A DNA stretch of 45,468 nucleotides from contig JAGATW010000058.1 in assembly GCA_017621085.1 (NCBI GenBank), positions 1 through 45,468 on the forward strand, written 5' to 3'. Under the pieces are notes generated by a model, which saw only the letters and a list, made by a program, of their open reading frames with translations, had not been told where the DNA came from and did no database searches. The position numbers were made by a program, and so were the translations under genes. Source of the DNA: Clostridia bacterium (GTDB lineage Bacteria > Bacillota > Clostridia > Oscillospirales > CAG-272). Positions 281 to 45,362 of the stretch are shown piece by piece; the stretch's first letter is position 1; each line of letters opens with the position of its first letter.

Positions 281-1150
281 ATGTTTGGTTACATTAAGCC
301 TAATATACCTGAATTAAGGGTTAAGGACCACGAGCTATACAAGGCTACATATTGTGGCTTATGTCGCACAATGGGAAAATGCACAGGCTGTGCATCTAAA
401 TTTACACTAAGCTATGATTTTGCCTTTTTTGCATTAGTCAGAATGGCACTTGAAAAGACACAGGGTCAAGTAAAAATGCGTCGCTGTATGGTACATCCCT
501 TTAAGAAAAGACCTATTATGGAGATAAATCCTGTCCTTGAATATTCTGCAAAATCAAGCGTGATTTTAACACGCTTAAAGCTAAAGGACAATGTAAATGA
601 CTCAAGGGGAATTTCGCGTCTGAAAGCAAAAATAGTGGGACTTGTGTCGCTCTTTTTCAAAAAAACGGACAAAAGCCTACTTCCCTTAGAGGAAAAAATC
701 AAGGAATGCATTGACAATCTTACCACTCTTGAAAAAGAGGAGTGCGACTCCATTGATAAGGTGGCAGACACCTTTGGTCAGCTTTTAGGTAATGTTGCGT
801 CCTTTGGCTTGGAAAAGGAAAAAGCAATTTTAGGCTATGAAATAGGCTACCATTTAGGCAAGTGGATTTATGTAATAGATGCTTGCGATGATTTAACAAG
901 GGACGTAAAGTCAGGCTCATATAATGTACTAAAAATTGCCTTTGGTAACAGTCTTGACAACAGTCAAAAATATTTAGTGCGAAGCGCTATGTTCTTAGAG
1001 CTTAACAAAATGGCAAAAGCTACCGAGCTTATTGATTTTACTGAGCATAGGGACGTAGAGGCGATTATTAAAAACATAATTTTTGACGGTCTTATAGAGG
1101 AAACAAACCGAGTTTTAGACATAAAAGAGGAAACAAACGAGAAAAATTAA
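281..1150 (+). CDS. DUF5685 family protein
   Basis: A protein of 289 aa of unknown function. The N-terminus MFGYIKP...PELRVKDHELYKA.YCGLCR is the hallmark of the DUF5685 family of Clostridia. I start it at ATG 281, not at the in-frame ATG at 257, because AAAGGAGG lies at 266-272, 8 nt before 281, and the family begins with MFGYIKP. Cysteines are concentrated near the N-terminus (YCGLCR, then KCTGC), which suggests metal binding or a redox site; this is inference. The C-terminal half is helical, with a YVIDACDDLTRD segment recalling the Asp-rich helices of prenyl-synthase-like all-alpha folds. No signal peptide or membrane helix is seen. It precedes a J-domain gene but has its own promoter. 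Confidence 0.8.
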   Translation: MFGYIKPNIPELRVKDHELYKATYCGLCRTMGKCTGCASKFTLSYDFAFFALVRMALEKTQGQVKMRRCMVHPFKKRPIMEINPVLEYSAKSSVILTRLKLKDNVNDSRGISRLKAKIVGLVSLFFKKTDKSLLPLEEKIKECIDNLTTLEKEECDSIDKVADTFGQLLGNVASFGLEKEKAILGYEIGYHLGKWIYVIDACDDLTRDVKSGSYNVLKIAFGNSLDNSQKYLVRSAMFLELNKMAKATELIDFTEHRDVEAIIKNIIFDGLIEETNRVLDIKEETNEKN

Positions 1151-1190
1151 CAGTTTTCTTAAAAATCACATAGTTTTCACCTTATCTTAC

Positions 1191-1219
1191 TTTACAAATG
1201 TTAATAATTATGGTAAAAT
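1191..1219 (+). promoter_or_regulatory. Sigma-A promoter for the J-domain gene
   Basis: TTTACA (1191-1196), a 17-bp spacer and an extended -10 TGG-TAAAAT (TAAAAT at 1214-1219). Confidence 0.65.
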
Positions 1220-1250
1220 GTAGCTAATAATGTTTACAAGAATAATAACG

Positions 1251-1282
1251 CAGTAAGCCATGCGTTTTGCTTGGCTTAGCTG
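1251..1282 (+). promoter_or_regulatory. Leader hairpin before the J-domain gene
   Basis: In the 5' UTR, CAG-TAAGCCA pairs with TGGCTTA-G-CTG (one bulged G) around an 11-nt loop. The stem ends a few nt before the ribosome binding site GGAGGAG. It could stabilise the transcript or modulate initiation; no T-tract follows, so it is not a terminator. Confidence 0.4.
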
Positions 1283-1297
1283 TATTGGAGGAGCTTA

Positions 1298-1888
1298 ATG
1301 AAAAATCCATATGATGTGCTTGGCGTTTCCCCTTCAGCAACTAATGAAGAGGTAAGAAATGCTTATAAAGCCCTTGCAAAAAAATATCATCCCGACAACT
1401 ATGTTGATAGTCCCTTAGCCGATATGGCAGAGGAAAGGATGAAGGAAATTAATGAAGCCTATGACGAGATTTTGCGCATGAGAACTTCAGGCTCATCAAA
1501 CCATCAAGATAACTCAAATTCGTACACGTCCGGGGGCTTTTCTTCAAATGATGACCCGATTTACAATCAAGCAAGAGGTATGATTAACAGGGGCGAGTAC
1601 AAGCAAGCCGAATCACTTCTTAACGGAATAGACCAAACAAGGCGAAATGCAGAGTGGTTTTTCCTAAAGGGCTGTATTCTCGTACACAGGGGCGACTATT
1701 TTGATGCTTTAAGGTACATTGAACGCGCTTGTGAGCTTGACCCCGGCAACAGAGAATATTCAACTCTGAGAGATAATCTGCGTGTACAGTCACAAAGCTA
1801 CGGTAATATGAATTCAAGACAATCAGGGGGATGCTCCATGTGCGATGTTTGCTCTATGCTTATTTGTCTTGATTGCCTTTGCAGATAA
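1298..1888 (+). CDS. J-domain protein with TPR-like region and Cys-rich tail
   Basis: A protein of 196 aa. Residues 1-65 form a J domain with the HPD tripeptide (KKYHPDN), which in this family stimulates the ATPase of DnaK-type Hsp70. A Ser/Asn-rich linker (about 66-90) follows, then two helical repeats resembling TPR units (about 95-160; note the pattern [18 protein letters not shown]). The last 20 residues are Cys-rich ([18 protein letters not shown]), suggesting metal binding or lipid/membrane attachment. There is no zinc-finger or C-terminal DnaJ domain, so it is a type III J protein and not the main DnaJ. GGAGGAG lies 5 nt before the ATG. Its stop is 2 nt before the next gene, so the two are probably co-translated. 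Confidence 0.8.
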
Positions 1889-12843: not shown

Positions 12844-13775
12844 TAAAAGGAACAGTTTTAAAGGGCGTTGGCGGTCTTTACACGGTTGAGTTGGATGAAG
12901 AATATCAGGAAAAAAGAGAAATAACTCTAAGAGCAAGAGGAGCCTTCAGACACGAAAAGCTTGTGCTTTTAACAGGTGACAGAGTAGAGGTTGAGCCACT
13001 TGCCGACGGTAGCTTTTTCTGTAAAAGCATTATTGAAAGAAAAAACTCACTAATTCGCCCACCGCTTGCCAACCTTGATATTATATTTGTGGCAATTCCC
13101 TGCAAAAAGCCAATGCCGTCCTTTGAAATTATTGATAAAATGATTTCAATAGCAGAGCATAACAAAATCGAGCCTGTAATTTTAATTACAAAGTCCGACC
13201 TTGAATTTGATTTTGCCAAGGAAATGTACAATATTTATAAAAACAGTGGCTTTGATGTGTTTATAACCTCATCGGAAAACAAAGAGGGCGTGGATGATTT
13301 TCGTAATTACTTGAAAAATCTCACAATAAACAACGCGCCTATATGCGCCTTTGCAGGTGTTTCGGGGGCGGGTAAAAGCACTTTTATGAATGCAATTTTC
13401 CCATCTCTTGAATTGGAAACAGGGGATTTGAGCCGAAAAATTGAACGTGGCAAAAACACCACAAGACACACAGAGCTTTTTCCCTTAAGCAAGCTTTTAG
13501 GAAGCGAGCATAAGGGCTATTTGGCAGATACCCCCGGCTTTTCACTTCTTGACTTTGAACGCTTTGACTTTTTTGATTTAGAGGATTTAATTTACACCTT
13601 CAGAGAATTTAAGAGCTCTTGTGGTAAATGTAAATACACAAAATGCTCTCACACAAAGGAGGAGGGCTGTGACGTAATTGCAAGGGTTAAGCGTGGTGAA
13701 ATTGAAAAAACAAGACACCAAAGCTACGTTGCACTTTATGATATTTTAAAGAAAAAGCCAACCTGGAAAAAGTAA
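12840..13775 (+). CDS. rsgA: Small-subunit ribosome biogenesis GTPase RsgA
   Basis: A protein of 311 aa, a circularly permuted GTPase that checks maturation of the 30S subunit. In order: an OB domain (1-75), the G4 motif TKSD, the P-loop GVSGAGKST (173-181), the G3 motif DTPGFS, and a zinc motif CGKCKYTKCSHTKEEGC. It overlaps the kinase stop by four bases. In Bacillus subtilis rpe and thiN follow; here the next gene is spoVM. Confidence 0.95.
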   Translation: MIKGTVLKGVGGLYTVELDEEYQEKREITLRARGAFRHEKLVLLTGDRVEVEPLADGSFFCKSIIERKNSLIRPPLANLDIIFVAIPCKKPMPSFEIIDKMISIAEHNKIEPVILITKSDLEFDFAKEMYNIYKNSGFDVFITSSENKEGVDDFRNYLKNLTINNAPICAFAGVSGAGKSTFMNAIFPSLELETGDLSRKIERGKNTTRHTELFPLSKLLGSEHKGYLADTPGFSLLDFERFDFFDLEDLIYTFREFKSSCGKCKYTKCSHTKEEGCDVIARVKRGEIEKTRHQSYVALYDILKKKPTWKK

Positions 13776-13898
13776 CAAACCTATAAAATTTCCATAATAT
13801 GTATTAGGCGCGTAATTTCTACGTTTATTAGCAAGCTAAAATCGTCTTAACGTGACGTGGCTAAAAGCCTTTTGCAAAATATTATAGGAGCATTTTAT

Positions 13899-13973
13899 AT
13901 GAAAATCGTACTTATAAAATCACCTAAAATACTCGCGCCAATCCTTCGCAGATTATTTAAGGTGAATAAATAA
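13899..13973 (+). CDS. spoVM: Stage V sporulation protein SpoVM
   Basis: A 24-aa ORF reads MKIVLIKSPKILAPILRRLF followed by KVNK. The Bacillus subtilis SpoVM (26 aa) also starts with MK, has K-x-P-K at residues 7-10 and an amphipathic helix with basic residues; Pro9 is present here. SpoVM senses positive membrane curvature and anchors the spore-coat ATPase SpoIVA on the forespore. AGGAG (13886-13890) lies 8 nt before the ATG. The order prkC-rsgA-(rpe-thiN)-spoVM in Bacillus supports the call. A strong terminator follows. A mother-cell sigma promoter is expected; CATAATAT near 13793-13800 is a weak candidate only. This indicates that the host can sporulate or recently could. Confidence 0.85.
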   Translation: MKIVLIKSPKILAPILRRLFKVNK

Positions 13974-13981
13974 AAAACAAA

Positions 13982-14021
13982 AAGAAGAATTATGTATAAC
14001 ACATAATTCTTCTTTTTTTTT
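13982..14021 (+). terminator. Terminator after spoVM
   Basis: A perfect 14-bp stem AAGAAGAATTATGT / ACATAATTCTTCTT closes the loop ATAAC and is followed by a run of eight T. A-rich sequence on the other side could make it bidirectional for the converging PHP gene. Confidence 0.85.
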
Positions 14022-14058
14022 AGTTCCATAATTCTTTTGATAGGTGAGGGGAGTTATG

Positions 14059-14166
14059 CACGCATTCTGCGTGATGATATGCAAGGCTTTGCCTTGGTGA
14101 TATACAACACCTTGTGTTGATGATATGCAATGCTTATGCATTGATGATATACAACGCATTCTGCGT
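14059..14166. repeat. Tandem array of five diverged mini-palindromes, about 23-nt period
   Basis: Five hairpins start at 14059, 14082, 14105, 14128 and 14154, the first four exactly 23 nt apart: CACGCA-TTC-TGCGTG, CAAGGC-TTT-GCCTTG, CAACAC-CTT-GTGTTG, CAATGC-TTAT-GCATTG and ACGCA-TTC-TGCGT. They are separated by an 8-nt spacer of the form RTGATATR. The stems differ in sequence but each is perfectly self-complementary. The array lies between the converging spoVM and PHP transcription units. A single unit related to the first one, with its flank GTTATGCACGCATTCTGCGT, occurs inverted at 34866-34890. Confidence 0.85.
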
Positions 14167-14171
14167 ATTTT

Positions 14172-14216
14172 GGCCCCTTTGTAAAGGGGGCTGTCACCAA
14201 AGGTGACTGAGGGATT
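14172..14216. repeat. Solo inverted-repeat end of a MITE-like element
   Basis: Two hairpins in series (GGCCCCTTT.GTAAAGGGGGC, then GTCACC-AAA-GGTGAC) followed by TGAGGGATT. The same plan and end sequence are found, inverted, as the right end of the element at 45249-45362, with GTCGC-AAA-GCGAC in place of the second stem. Elements of this type are widespread in Ruminococcaceae-like genomes. Only one end is visible here, so it is a remnant or solo copy. Confidence 0.65.
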
Positions 14217-14225
14217 TATACCTTT

Positions 14226-14888
14226 TTATTGCTTATTTAGTGTATAATTGCCTGACTTTAAAATCTCTACAAGCTGGGTCATTGAGGTAATTTCCTCATC
14301 TGTTATAATACCACCGTTTGCATTTGAGTCATCATAGTGAAAATCAGTGCCTGATGTCTTAATAAGACCAAATCTGTCTGCCCACATATCTGCAATTTCG
14401 TTTCTTGAATCGTGGTCCTTGTGTCCGTTAAACACCTCAATACCGTCAAGATGATGTGGGTAAACAATTGTCATATTGTTTCTGAATGGGTGCGCCTGTA
14501 TAAACAAGCAACCGTTTTCATTTGCTAAACGATGGAACTTATCAGGGCCAAGAGTAAACATATCAGGGTTATTTCTTAAAAACTCCTCGGTAATACCAAA
14601 AACAAGATAGTCATTAATATTTTCATCAAATCTTAATTCCATACCTAAAAGTATGTTTAGCTTGCCCTCGGCTTCCTTTTTTAATATATAGTAGCCATTT
14701 AAATATTTATCTATCCAGTCATTCCAGTCAGTTGATTTAAGGTATTTCATAGTACCACGGTTGAAGTGATTTGCTAATACAAGGGTAGTATAGCCTGCCT
14801 TAGTAAATTTTTCAATAATTTGAGATGCATTAACCCATGCACACTCGCTAACATCCTTTGAATGACAATGTAATTCGGTTTTAAACAT
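14226..14888 (-). CDS. PHP-domain phosphoesterase
   Basis: A protein of 220 aa. The PHP metal ligands are recognisable: HCH in TELHCHS (residues 8 and 10), His in LVLANHFN, His in FIQAHPFR, Glu in IEVFNGH and the Asp-x-His pair in SGTDFHYD. Such proteins are metal-dependent phosphoesterases related to histidinol phosphatase and the PHP domain of DNA polymerase; the substrate of this one is unknown. It has its own consensus promoter and lies at the 3' side of the nucleoside operon but is separated from it by a terminator. GAGGCG provides a modest ribosome binding site. Confidence 0.8.
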   Translation of the reverse strand: MFKTELHCHSKDVSECAWVNASQIIEKFTKAGYTTLVLANHFNRGTMKYLKSTDWNDWIDKYLNGYYILKKEAEGKLNILLGMELRFDENINDYLVFGITEEFLRNNPDMFTLGPDKFHRLANENGCLFIQAHPFRNNMTIVYPHHLDGIEVFNGHKDHDSRNEIADMWADRFGLIKTSGTDFHYDDSNANGGIITDEEITSMTQLVEILKSGNYTLNKQ

Positions 14889-45248: not shown

Positions 45249-45362
45249 AGCCTCCCCTGTGTAAGGGGAGGTGGATTGCGAAGCAAGACGGAAGGGTTGT
45301 AAGATTATGAGGAACAATCCCTCAGTCGCTTTGCGACAGCTCCCTTTACACAAAGGAGCCTA
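45249..45362. mobile_element. MITE-like element with about 50-bp imperfect terminal inverted repeats
   Basis: The left end (AGCCTCCCCTGTGTAAGGGG, then AGGTGG, a small stem and AAGGGTTGT) is mirrored by the right end (AGGCTCCTTTGTGTAAAGGG, then AGCTG, a small stem and GAGGGATTGT when read inward on the minus strand). Each end folds into two hairpins; the centre is about 14 bp. No coding sequence is inside. I recall similar elements as abundant in Ruminococcaceae. A solo end is at 14172-14216. Flanking target-site duplications are not obvious. Confidence 0.7.

Follow-up and report, generated by a model that had tools for sequence, protein, structure and literature searches.

The Hairpin Array and Its Genomic Neighborhood

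The stretch of DNA analyzed here, called the window in the following (45,468 nucleotides, contig JAGATW010000058.1 of the Clostridia bacterium assembly GCA_017621085.1), carries at positions 14059-14166 a confirmed row of five hairpins connected by four 10-nt linkers of the consensus GRTGATATRC. It is located between a terminator-like hairpin with 21-nt arms (95% complementary) and a T-run (13975-14021) and the 3' end of a convergent gene for a PHP-like protein of 220 aa (14226-14888, minus strand; PF02811, E-value 1.2e-4, 22.9 bits, below the cut-off of 26.4), and a second palindromic repeat module (14172-14216, plus strand) adjoins it. The terminator belongs to a SpoVM-like ORF of 24 aa (13899-13973, plus strand; NF033436, 29.6 bits, below the cut-off of 31), RsgA being the further gene product encoded on that side. 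The SpoVM-like ORF behind rsgA is smaller than the 60-aa cut-off for ORFs and is conserved at the same place in relatives. A search of positions 13700-14500 against Rfam returned 15 weak matches, none of them at the gathering score and none to rRNA, and ARAGORN reported neither a tRNA nor a tmRNA in the whole window.

As judged from the positions of the RTGATATR cores (14074, 14097, 14120, and 14144; spacing 23, 23, and 24 nt), the original prediction of five hairpins, the first four with a 23-nt period and a constant RTGATATR spacer, describes the array correctly, the spacer being part of the longer linker. The stems read CACGCA/TGCGTG in hairpin 1 (14059-14073), CAAGGC/GCCTTG in hairpin 2 (14082-14096), CAACAC/GTGTTG in hairpin 3 (14105-14119), CAATGC/GCATTG in hairpin 4 (14128-14143), and ACGCA/TGCGT in hairpin 5 (14152-14166), while the linkers read on the plus strand GATGATATGC (linkers 1 and 3, 14073-14082 and 14119-14128), GGTGATATAC (linker 2, 14096-14105), and GATGATATAC (linker 4, 14143-14152). 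Since hairpins 1 and 5 are identical in their 13-nt core (family D3), the array contains four stem sequences rather than five, and the claim that each stem has its own sequence had to be given up. The same array is found by TRF (14072-14157, period 23) with a score of 93, the highest of its 15 rows. Folded as RNA, both strands are more stable than expected, with z-values of -3.95 for the plus strand (none of 200 shuffles as good) and -3.28 for the minus strand (one of 200 as good); in the centroid fold of the latter, hairpin 1 pairs through its arm with that of hairpin 5, so that hairpins 2-4 are enclosed. The array is assigned here to the minus strand, which reads GYATATCATC and is the putative folding strand.

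For the identification of empty sites, the flanks of the array were compared with 30 genomes of the same genus and the gap between them was read. In six relatives (G014, G016, G020, G021, G022, and G026) the genes follow each other in the same order and orientation, and all six are devoid of the array, which identifies it as a recent insertion. In other genomes the PHP-like gene is inverted relative to rsgA, and the gaps read in two of these (G001 and G012) likewise contain no array; the stretches read in G003, G017, G018, and G025 do not lead straight into the PHP-like gene.

Distribution of the GATGATATRC Family

The host assembly (1.9 Mb, 65% complete) contains 14 exact matches to TGATGATATRCAA on five contigs and none to a reversed control pattern. 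In the search of relatives, the linker pattern occurred in 34 of 58 genomes including the host's own, the reversed control in four, once each, both among the matches listed. A two-linker pattern was found in at least 119 stretches of genome contigs, with 53 stretches from viral contigs left out of the study; six of the 80 matches listed carry titles of other phyla, and the remainder come mostly from uncultured gut Clostridia. Some of the 151 clusters obtained are likely to be chance matches, e.g., L050, L060, L068, and L093, which come from other phyla. The pattern is widespread in the host and its relatives, rather than a single or decaying occurrence, which had been named as the outcome that would speak against a maintained system. 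The copies of the host can be aligned, with loops appearing more variable than stems by eye, and the window stems AAGGC, ACAC, and ATGC rank among the commonest of the family. One congener, G025, carries ten near-identical arrays of four or five hairpins each, with differences in entire units and in the letters of the loops. Beside arrays of this genome (L247, L248, and L249), further hairpins are joined by GATTCCATACA, which resembles the linker family of GTATGGAATC.

Two-Halved Relatives Behind Terminators and tRNA Genes

The larger relatives of the array are elements of about 200 nt which lie behind terminator-like hairpins, often those of tRNAs. They begin with a terminal arm, which is followed by hairpins joined through GYATATCATC linkers, by a centre that is complementary to this arm, by hairpins with the inverted linker, and sometimes by a gene for a PF05635 protein. 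The linker numbers are most often 3 + 3 (44 of 118 elements). Among the 118 distinct elements, 91 show a match of arm and centre at nine or all 10 positions, compared to 25% for random partners; the terminal arm also folds as a hairpin of its own. The fold of one example (z -6.4) is largely due to pairing of linkers with inverted linkers, so the linkers need not be open and more than one fold is available to such an element. The search pattern for this set required a start after TTTAT(T)CC-like letters, and a T-run is thus built into it. A hairpin below -8 kcal/mol is present in the 60 nt upstream of 111 of 115 elements, a count made without a shuffled control. A tRNA 3'-end motif was recorded at most 130 nt upstream of 48 of 114 elements, on the other side of none of 106, and at 2.1% of random positions.

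The genes following these elements are diverse. A PF05635 protein is encoded by the first gene at 11 of 92 oriented arrays, which rejects the notion that array and four-helix-bundle gene always occur together. Comparison of 58 first genes showed these 11 as the largest family and one further family of two, most of the others being unrelated. This diversity, together with the many arrays standing alone, makes it very improbable that the arrays are the boundaries of gene cassettes, at which small units of promoter and gene would recombine in the manner of integron attC sites. Such an arrangement would fit the contigs L011 and L075, on which array and small gene alternate twice in one orientation, and the TATAAT motif near the far end of 40 of 92 oriented arrays, a row count without a chance control.

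Several neighbors of individual arrays were recorded along the way. Two arrays on L011 (positions 1-1100, host contig C63) enclose a gene for a 120-aa protein, and a 158-aa protein is encoded after the second one in a cassette-like order; neither protein has a match in Pfam. A tmRNA gene (999-1367, plus strand) lies just upstream of the two-halved array of L030, and a Gut-1 RNA (1267-1340, minus strand; RF01706, 50.6 bits at a gathering score of 50) about 90 nt from that of L015. The Rfam searches of L015, L016, L030, and L031 gave 11 matches in total (tRNA, tmRNA, and Gut-1), none of them over the array.

Covariation of the Stems and the Folding Strand

Self-complementarity is a general property of the segments between the linkers, since 170 of 235 distinct ones (72%) possess end stems with 4 bp or more, compared to 19% after swapping of the right halves. 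Of the hairpins 13-16 nt long (n = 138), 103 are perfect, 24 contain one defect, and 11 more than one. Their stem positions form Watson-Crick pairs in 81-100% of the cases, exceeding all 300 shuffles at 18 of 20 positions, and three or four types of pairs are used at 16 of the 20. For the hairpins of this size class, the covarying stems bear out that pairing is preserved through changes on both sides, be it by selection or by template switching. In agreement with the original prediction, the array is no plain tandem repeat. The covariation is weak in the 18-nt hairpins (n = 16), with only two of seven positions above all shuffles. The linkers stay fixed while the stems covary.

The remaining defects point to the strand that is folded. 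In the two-halved relatives, the single defects of the first half, written on the tRNA-sense strand, comprise 13 G.T and two A.C mismatches of 22, those of the second half two G.T and seven A.C of 13 (Fisher's test, p 0.003, with small numbers). The bias thus flips between the halves, which places the wobble pairs of both on the strand reading GYATATCATC and, within the limits of these small numbers, favors selection on that strand in its folded form. The linkers are also more open on this strand in 21 of 22 head-to-tail arrays, an effect to which the higher G and U content of the opposite strand contributes.

Mutation alone might in principle generate such structures, with slippage adding units and template switching, a known source of perfect stems, converting quasi-palindromes into perfect ones in otherwise neutral repeats. 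The copies of G025 differing by whole units agree with this explanation. It is nevertheless considered quite improbable, because it accounts neither for linkers kept while the stems change, nor for the match between a separate arm and centre across about 100 nt, nor for wobble pairs biased to one strand.

PF05635 Proteins and Their Linker Families

The four-helix-bundle gene found with some of the arrays belongs to PF05635, the family of rRNA intervening-sequence and Avd-like proteins. The one protein scanned, that of L075, matches PF05635 with 69.9 bits (cut-off 33.8; E-value 2.5e-19) and TIGR02436 with 76 bits (cut-off 24). The nearest solved sequence is 2rld (E-value 1.3e-17). A homologue from Xanthomonas is presented as a homopentameric ring in a section of PMC4990558, which also states that no function is known for the S23p (PF05635) proteins encoded by rRNA inserts.

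In the genus and order, PF05635 genes are also found behind arrays with other linkers, which include at least AGTGATATT, AATGAAGC, AGCTAAATT, AATGATGT, AGTGAAGT, AGTTATGA, GTATGGAATC, GTATGTAATC, and CATGAATTG. Inversion of the linker was seen in 31 of 35 labelled elements of these kinds, and the complementarity between terminal part and centre of all 31 was reached by at most four of 200 shuffles, although the complementary run includes linker letters in about half of them and is not independent evidence there. A tRNA was detected by ARAGORN within about 700 nt in 38 of 87 PF05635 rows (among which one gene is represented by two loci and a broken gene enters the count twice), each time upstream and on the same strand, and Rfam adds upstream tRNAs missed by ARAGORN in four rows (L359, L362, L366, and L368). 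In view of the 38 rows, it would be an overstatement to place almost all PF05635 genes behind a tRNA. In the wider phylum, PF05635 matches occur in 35 of 199 genomes. Some of these genes are located inside 23S rRNA (L443 and L455) or RNase P RNA (L450), and several, including these three, sit behind short direct repeats.

No PF05635 gene is present beside the window array. The host assembly contains a single match on contig C112, which fits no linker family by the rule used and whose repeats read GTTATGA by eye. The supposition that every host of an array possesses a matching protein failed in G025 (90% complete), where the ten array copies are accompanied by one PF05635 match of another linker clade.

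A view on the relatedness of the proteins shows that linker family and protein clade are firmly congruent in this sample. Out of 67 distinct proteins of at least 95 aa, 50 could be labelled by a linker present in at least three copies upstream, and 17 unlabelled ones were left out. The 15 linker states require 14 changes on the protein tree, which is the minimum, whereas 500 shuffles required 30-35; restricted to linker families with at least two members, 44 proteins with nine states require eight changes. Note that the labels were assigned after seeing the sequences that the protein alignment is short (119 columns), and that 30 of 64 inner branches are open. The similar linkers GTATGGAATC and GTATGTAATC belong to neighboring clades, and the congruence is not a species effect, since different families (AGTTATGA, AGTGAAGT, and GATGATATRC) are carried by the single genome G010. 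Congruence alone could be the consequence of linkage between array and gene, which by itself produces it. That the linkers remain fixed while the stems change suggests recognition.

A tRNA-His Gene as Insertion Hotspot

The tRNA-Arg/tRNA-His gene pair was read at 27 loci, of which 23 are readable beyond tRNA-His, two end at a contig edge, and two could not be parsed. By eye, the 3' end of tRNA-His is occupied in 17 of the 23 readable congeners by elements of six families, several of which are halves or remnants. GATGATATRC elements or remnants are found in G002, G010, G013, G016, G021, G022, G024, and G026, AATGATGT in G003, G008, and G014, AGTGATATT in G004 and G028, GTATGGAATC in G012 and G023, GATGAAATC only in G020, and ATATCAT, whose letters are close to GATGATATRC, only in G018. 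No element was seen by eye at this site in G001, G005, G007, G009, G011, and G025. The same gene follows in G003 and G013, which carry different linker families.

This replacement of one family by another at a single tRNA 3' end, and the six of 23 congeners in which it is empty, argue against the arrays being host-domesticated 3'-end or insulator elements, which would protect transcripts or limit readthrough and supercoiling from one neighboring gene to the next as BIMEs do, with the protein gene as a frequent passenger. Their position at the 3' ends of genes, the site of the window array between convergent genes, and the stable hairpin upstream of nearly every two-halved element (counted without shuffled control, the T-run being part of the search pattern) agree with such a role. 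A general 3'-end function does not predict the congruence between linkers and proteins, and this explanation appears rather unlikely to us.

Comparison With Known Systems

The arrays come nearest to the rRNA intervening sequences by their protein and to REP elements by their habit, and they belong to neither by the features compared here. The intervening sequences are characterized in part of PMC4990558 as inserted, structured sequences with complementary arms at their borders and a PF05635 gene in some copies. The relatives of the arrays share all of these properties, and the PF05635 genes inside 23S rRNA (L443 and L455) and RNase P RNA (L450) belong to the same phylum. In contrast to the intervening sequences, the arrays are found behind terminators, often of tRNA genes, and in the window between protein genes; they consist of a row of several hairpins with constant linkers, and the PF05635 gene, missing beside the window array and present at 11 of 92 two-halved relatives, follows the array instead of residing within a stem.

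With REP elements and BIMEs, the arrays share short palindromes dispersed in many copies, at the 3' ends of genes and in arrays, but differ in combining a constant linker with variable stems. Mobilization by a Y1 transposase, as in a REP/RAYT system, would be in line with the dispersal and with the Y1 matches in 13 of 30 genomes. The other 17 genomes have no Y1 match and include the array-bearing G016, G020, and G025, no Y1 gene linked to an array was seen by eye within 5 kb in the 30 genomes among the matches listed, and the linker is not GTAG, the mark of REP elements; we therefore regard this explanation as extremely improbable. A likeness to diversity-generating retroelements is given by the resemblance of PF05635 to Avd, as mentioned in a passage of PMC10053308, but RVT_1 domains occur in only three of 30 genomes of the genus and not in the host assembly. 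Neither Y1 transposases nor reverse transcriptases, both searched as potential mobilizers, account for the movement of the elements.

As in CRISPR arrays, constant parts are regularly interspersed with variable ones, but the constant part is only 10 nt long and the variable part is a self-complementary palindrome from a stem repertoire common to several genomes, in accordance with the earlier exclusion of a CRISPR. No Rfam family was matched at the gathering score over the array of the window or those of L015, L016, L030, and L031. In the open-access literature searched, no description was found of hairpin arrays with PF05635 genes behind tRNA genes; a '23S rRNA IVP' appears in a legend panel of PMC10910872 on CRISPR adaptation associations, and another part of that paper describes tRNA arrays with variable spacers.

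A Possible Role of Linkers and Stems

With the array, its insertion, the family, the covariation, the two-halved plan of the relatives, and the siting at tRNA genes firmly established, the reading we prefer, to which we give about an even chance of being correct, is that the window array is a GATGATATRC-family copy in head-to-tail form, dispersed and of recent origin, and that the family represents the non-coding portion of an insertion element residing behind terminator-like hairpins, often those of tRNAs, with a PF05635 gene in some copies. The protein would read the linkers, and the stems would act as spacers. On the strand reading GYATATCATC, the stems may fold and thereby hold the linkers open at regular spacing; the presumably ring-shaped four-helix-bundle protein could then bind the linkers, and the complex might serve the upkeep or the movement of the element, for which the array may be important. 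No gene of this kind adjoins the copy in the window, which would represent a non-autonomous derivative of REP-like character; its linker and stems, common to both types, suggest descent from the two-halved elements. The ten copies of G025 without a matching protein and the low share of arrays followed directly by the gene (11 of 92) count against this reading. Compared with the original prediction, maintained pairing and a widespread pattern are retained, and the tie between linker and protein and the two-halved relatives, which it had missed, are added.

A more far-reaching version, proposed here only tentatively, is that of a new class of mobile elements sited after terminators, frequently those of tRNA genes. 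A toroidal four-helix-bundle protein would here recognize a linker code specific to its clade and presented between freely evolving hairpins, and the window array would be a non-autonomous satellite. If true, PF05635 proteins in and outside of rRNA would gain a function, namely binding of the repeats of their own element. The family obtains a candidate target in a linker whose changes coincide, in the sample studied, exclusively with changes of protein clade, and this makes a direct binding test possible. The row of palindromes in the window would then be one member of a broad class inserted recurrently behind terminators and tRNA genes of gut Clostridia.

The second palindromic module, which adjoins the array in the window and in the copies on host contig C19, is built of a short variable stem enclosed by constant flanks (TGTC...GACTGAGGGATT). 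It also occurs in the window at 45316-45338 (minus strand) and is dispersed alone elsewhere, with 11 distinct inner sequences among the loci compared, most of which are self-complementary.
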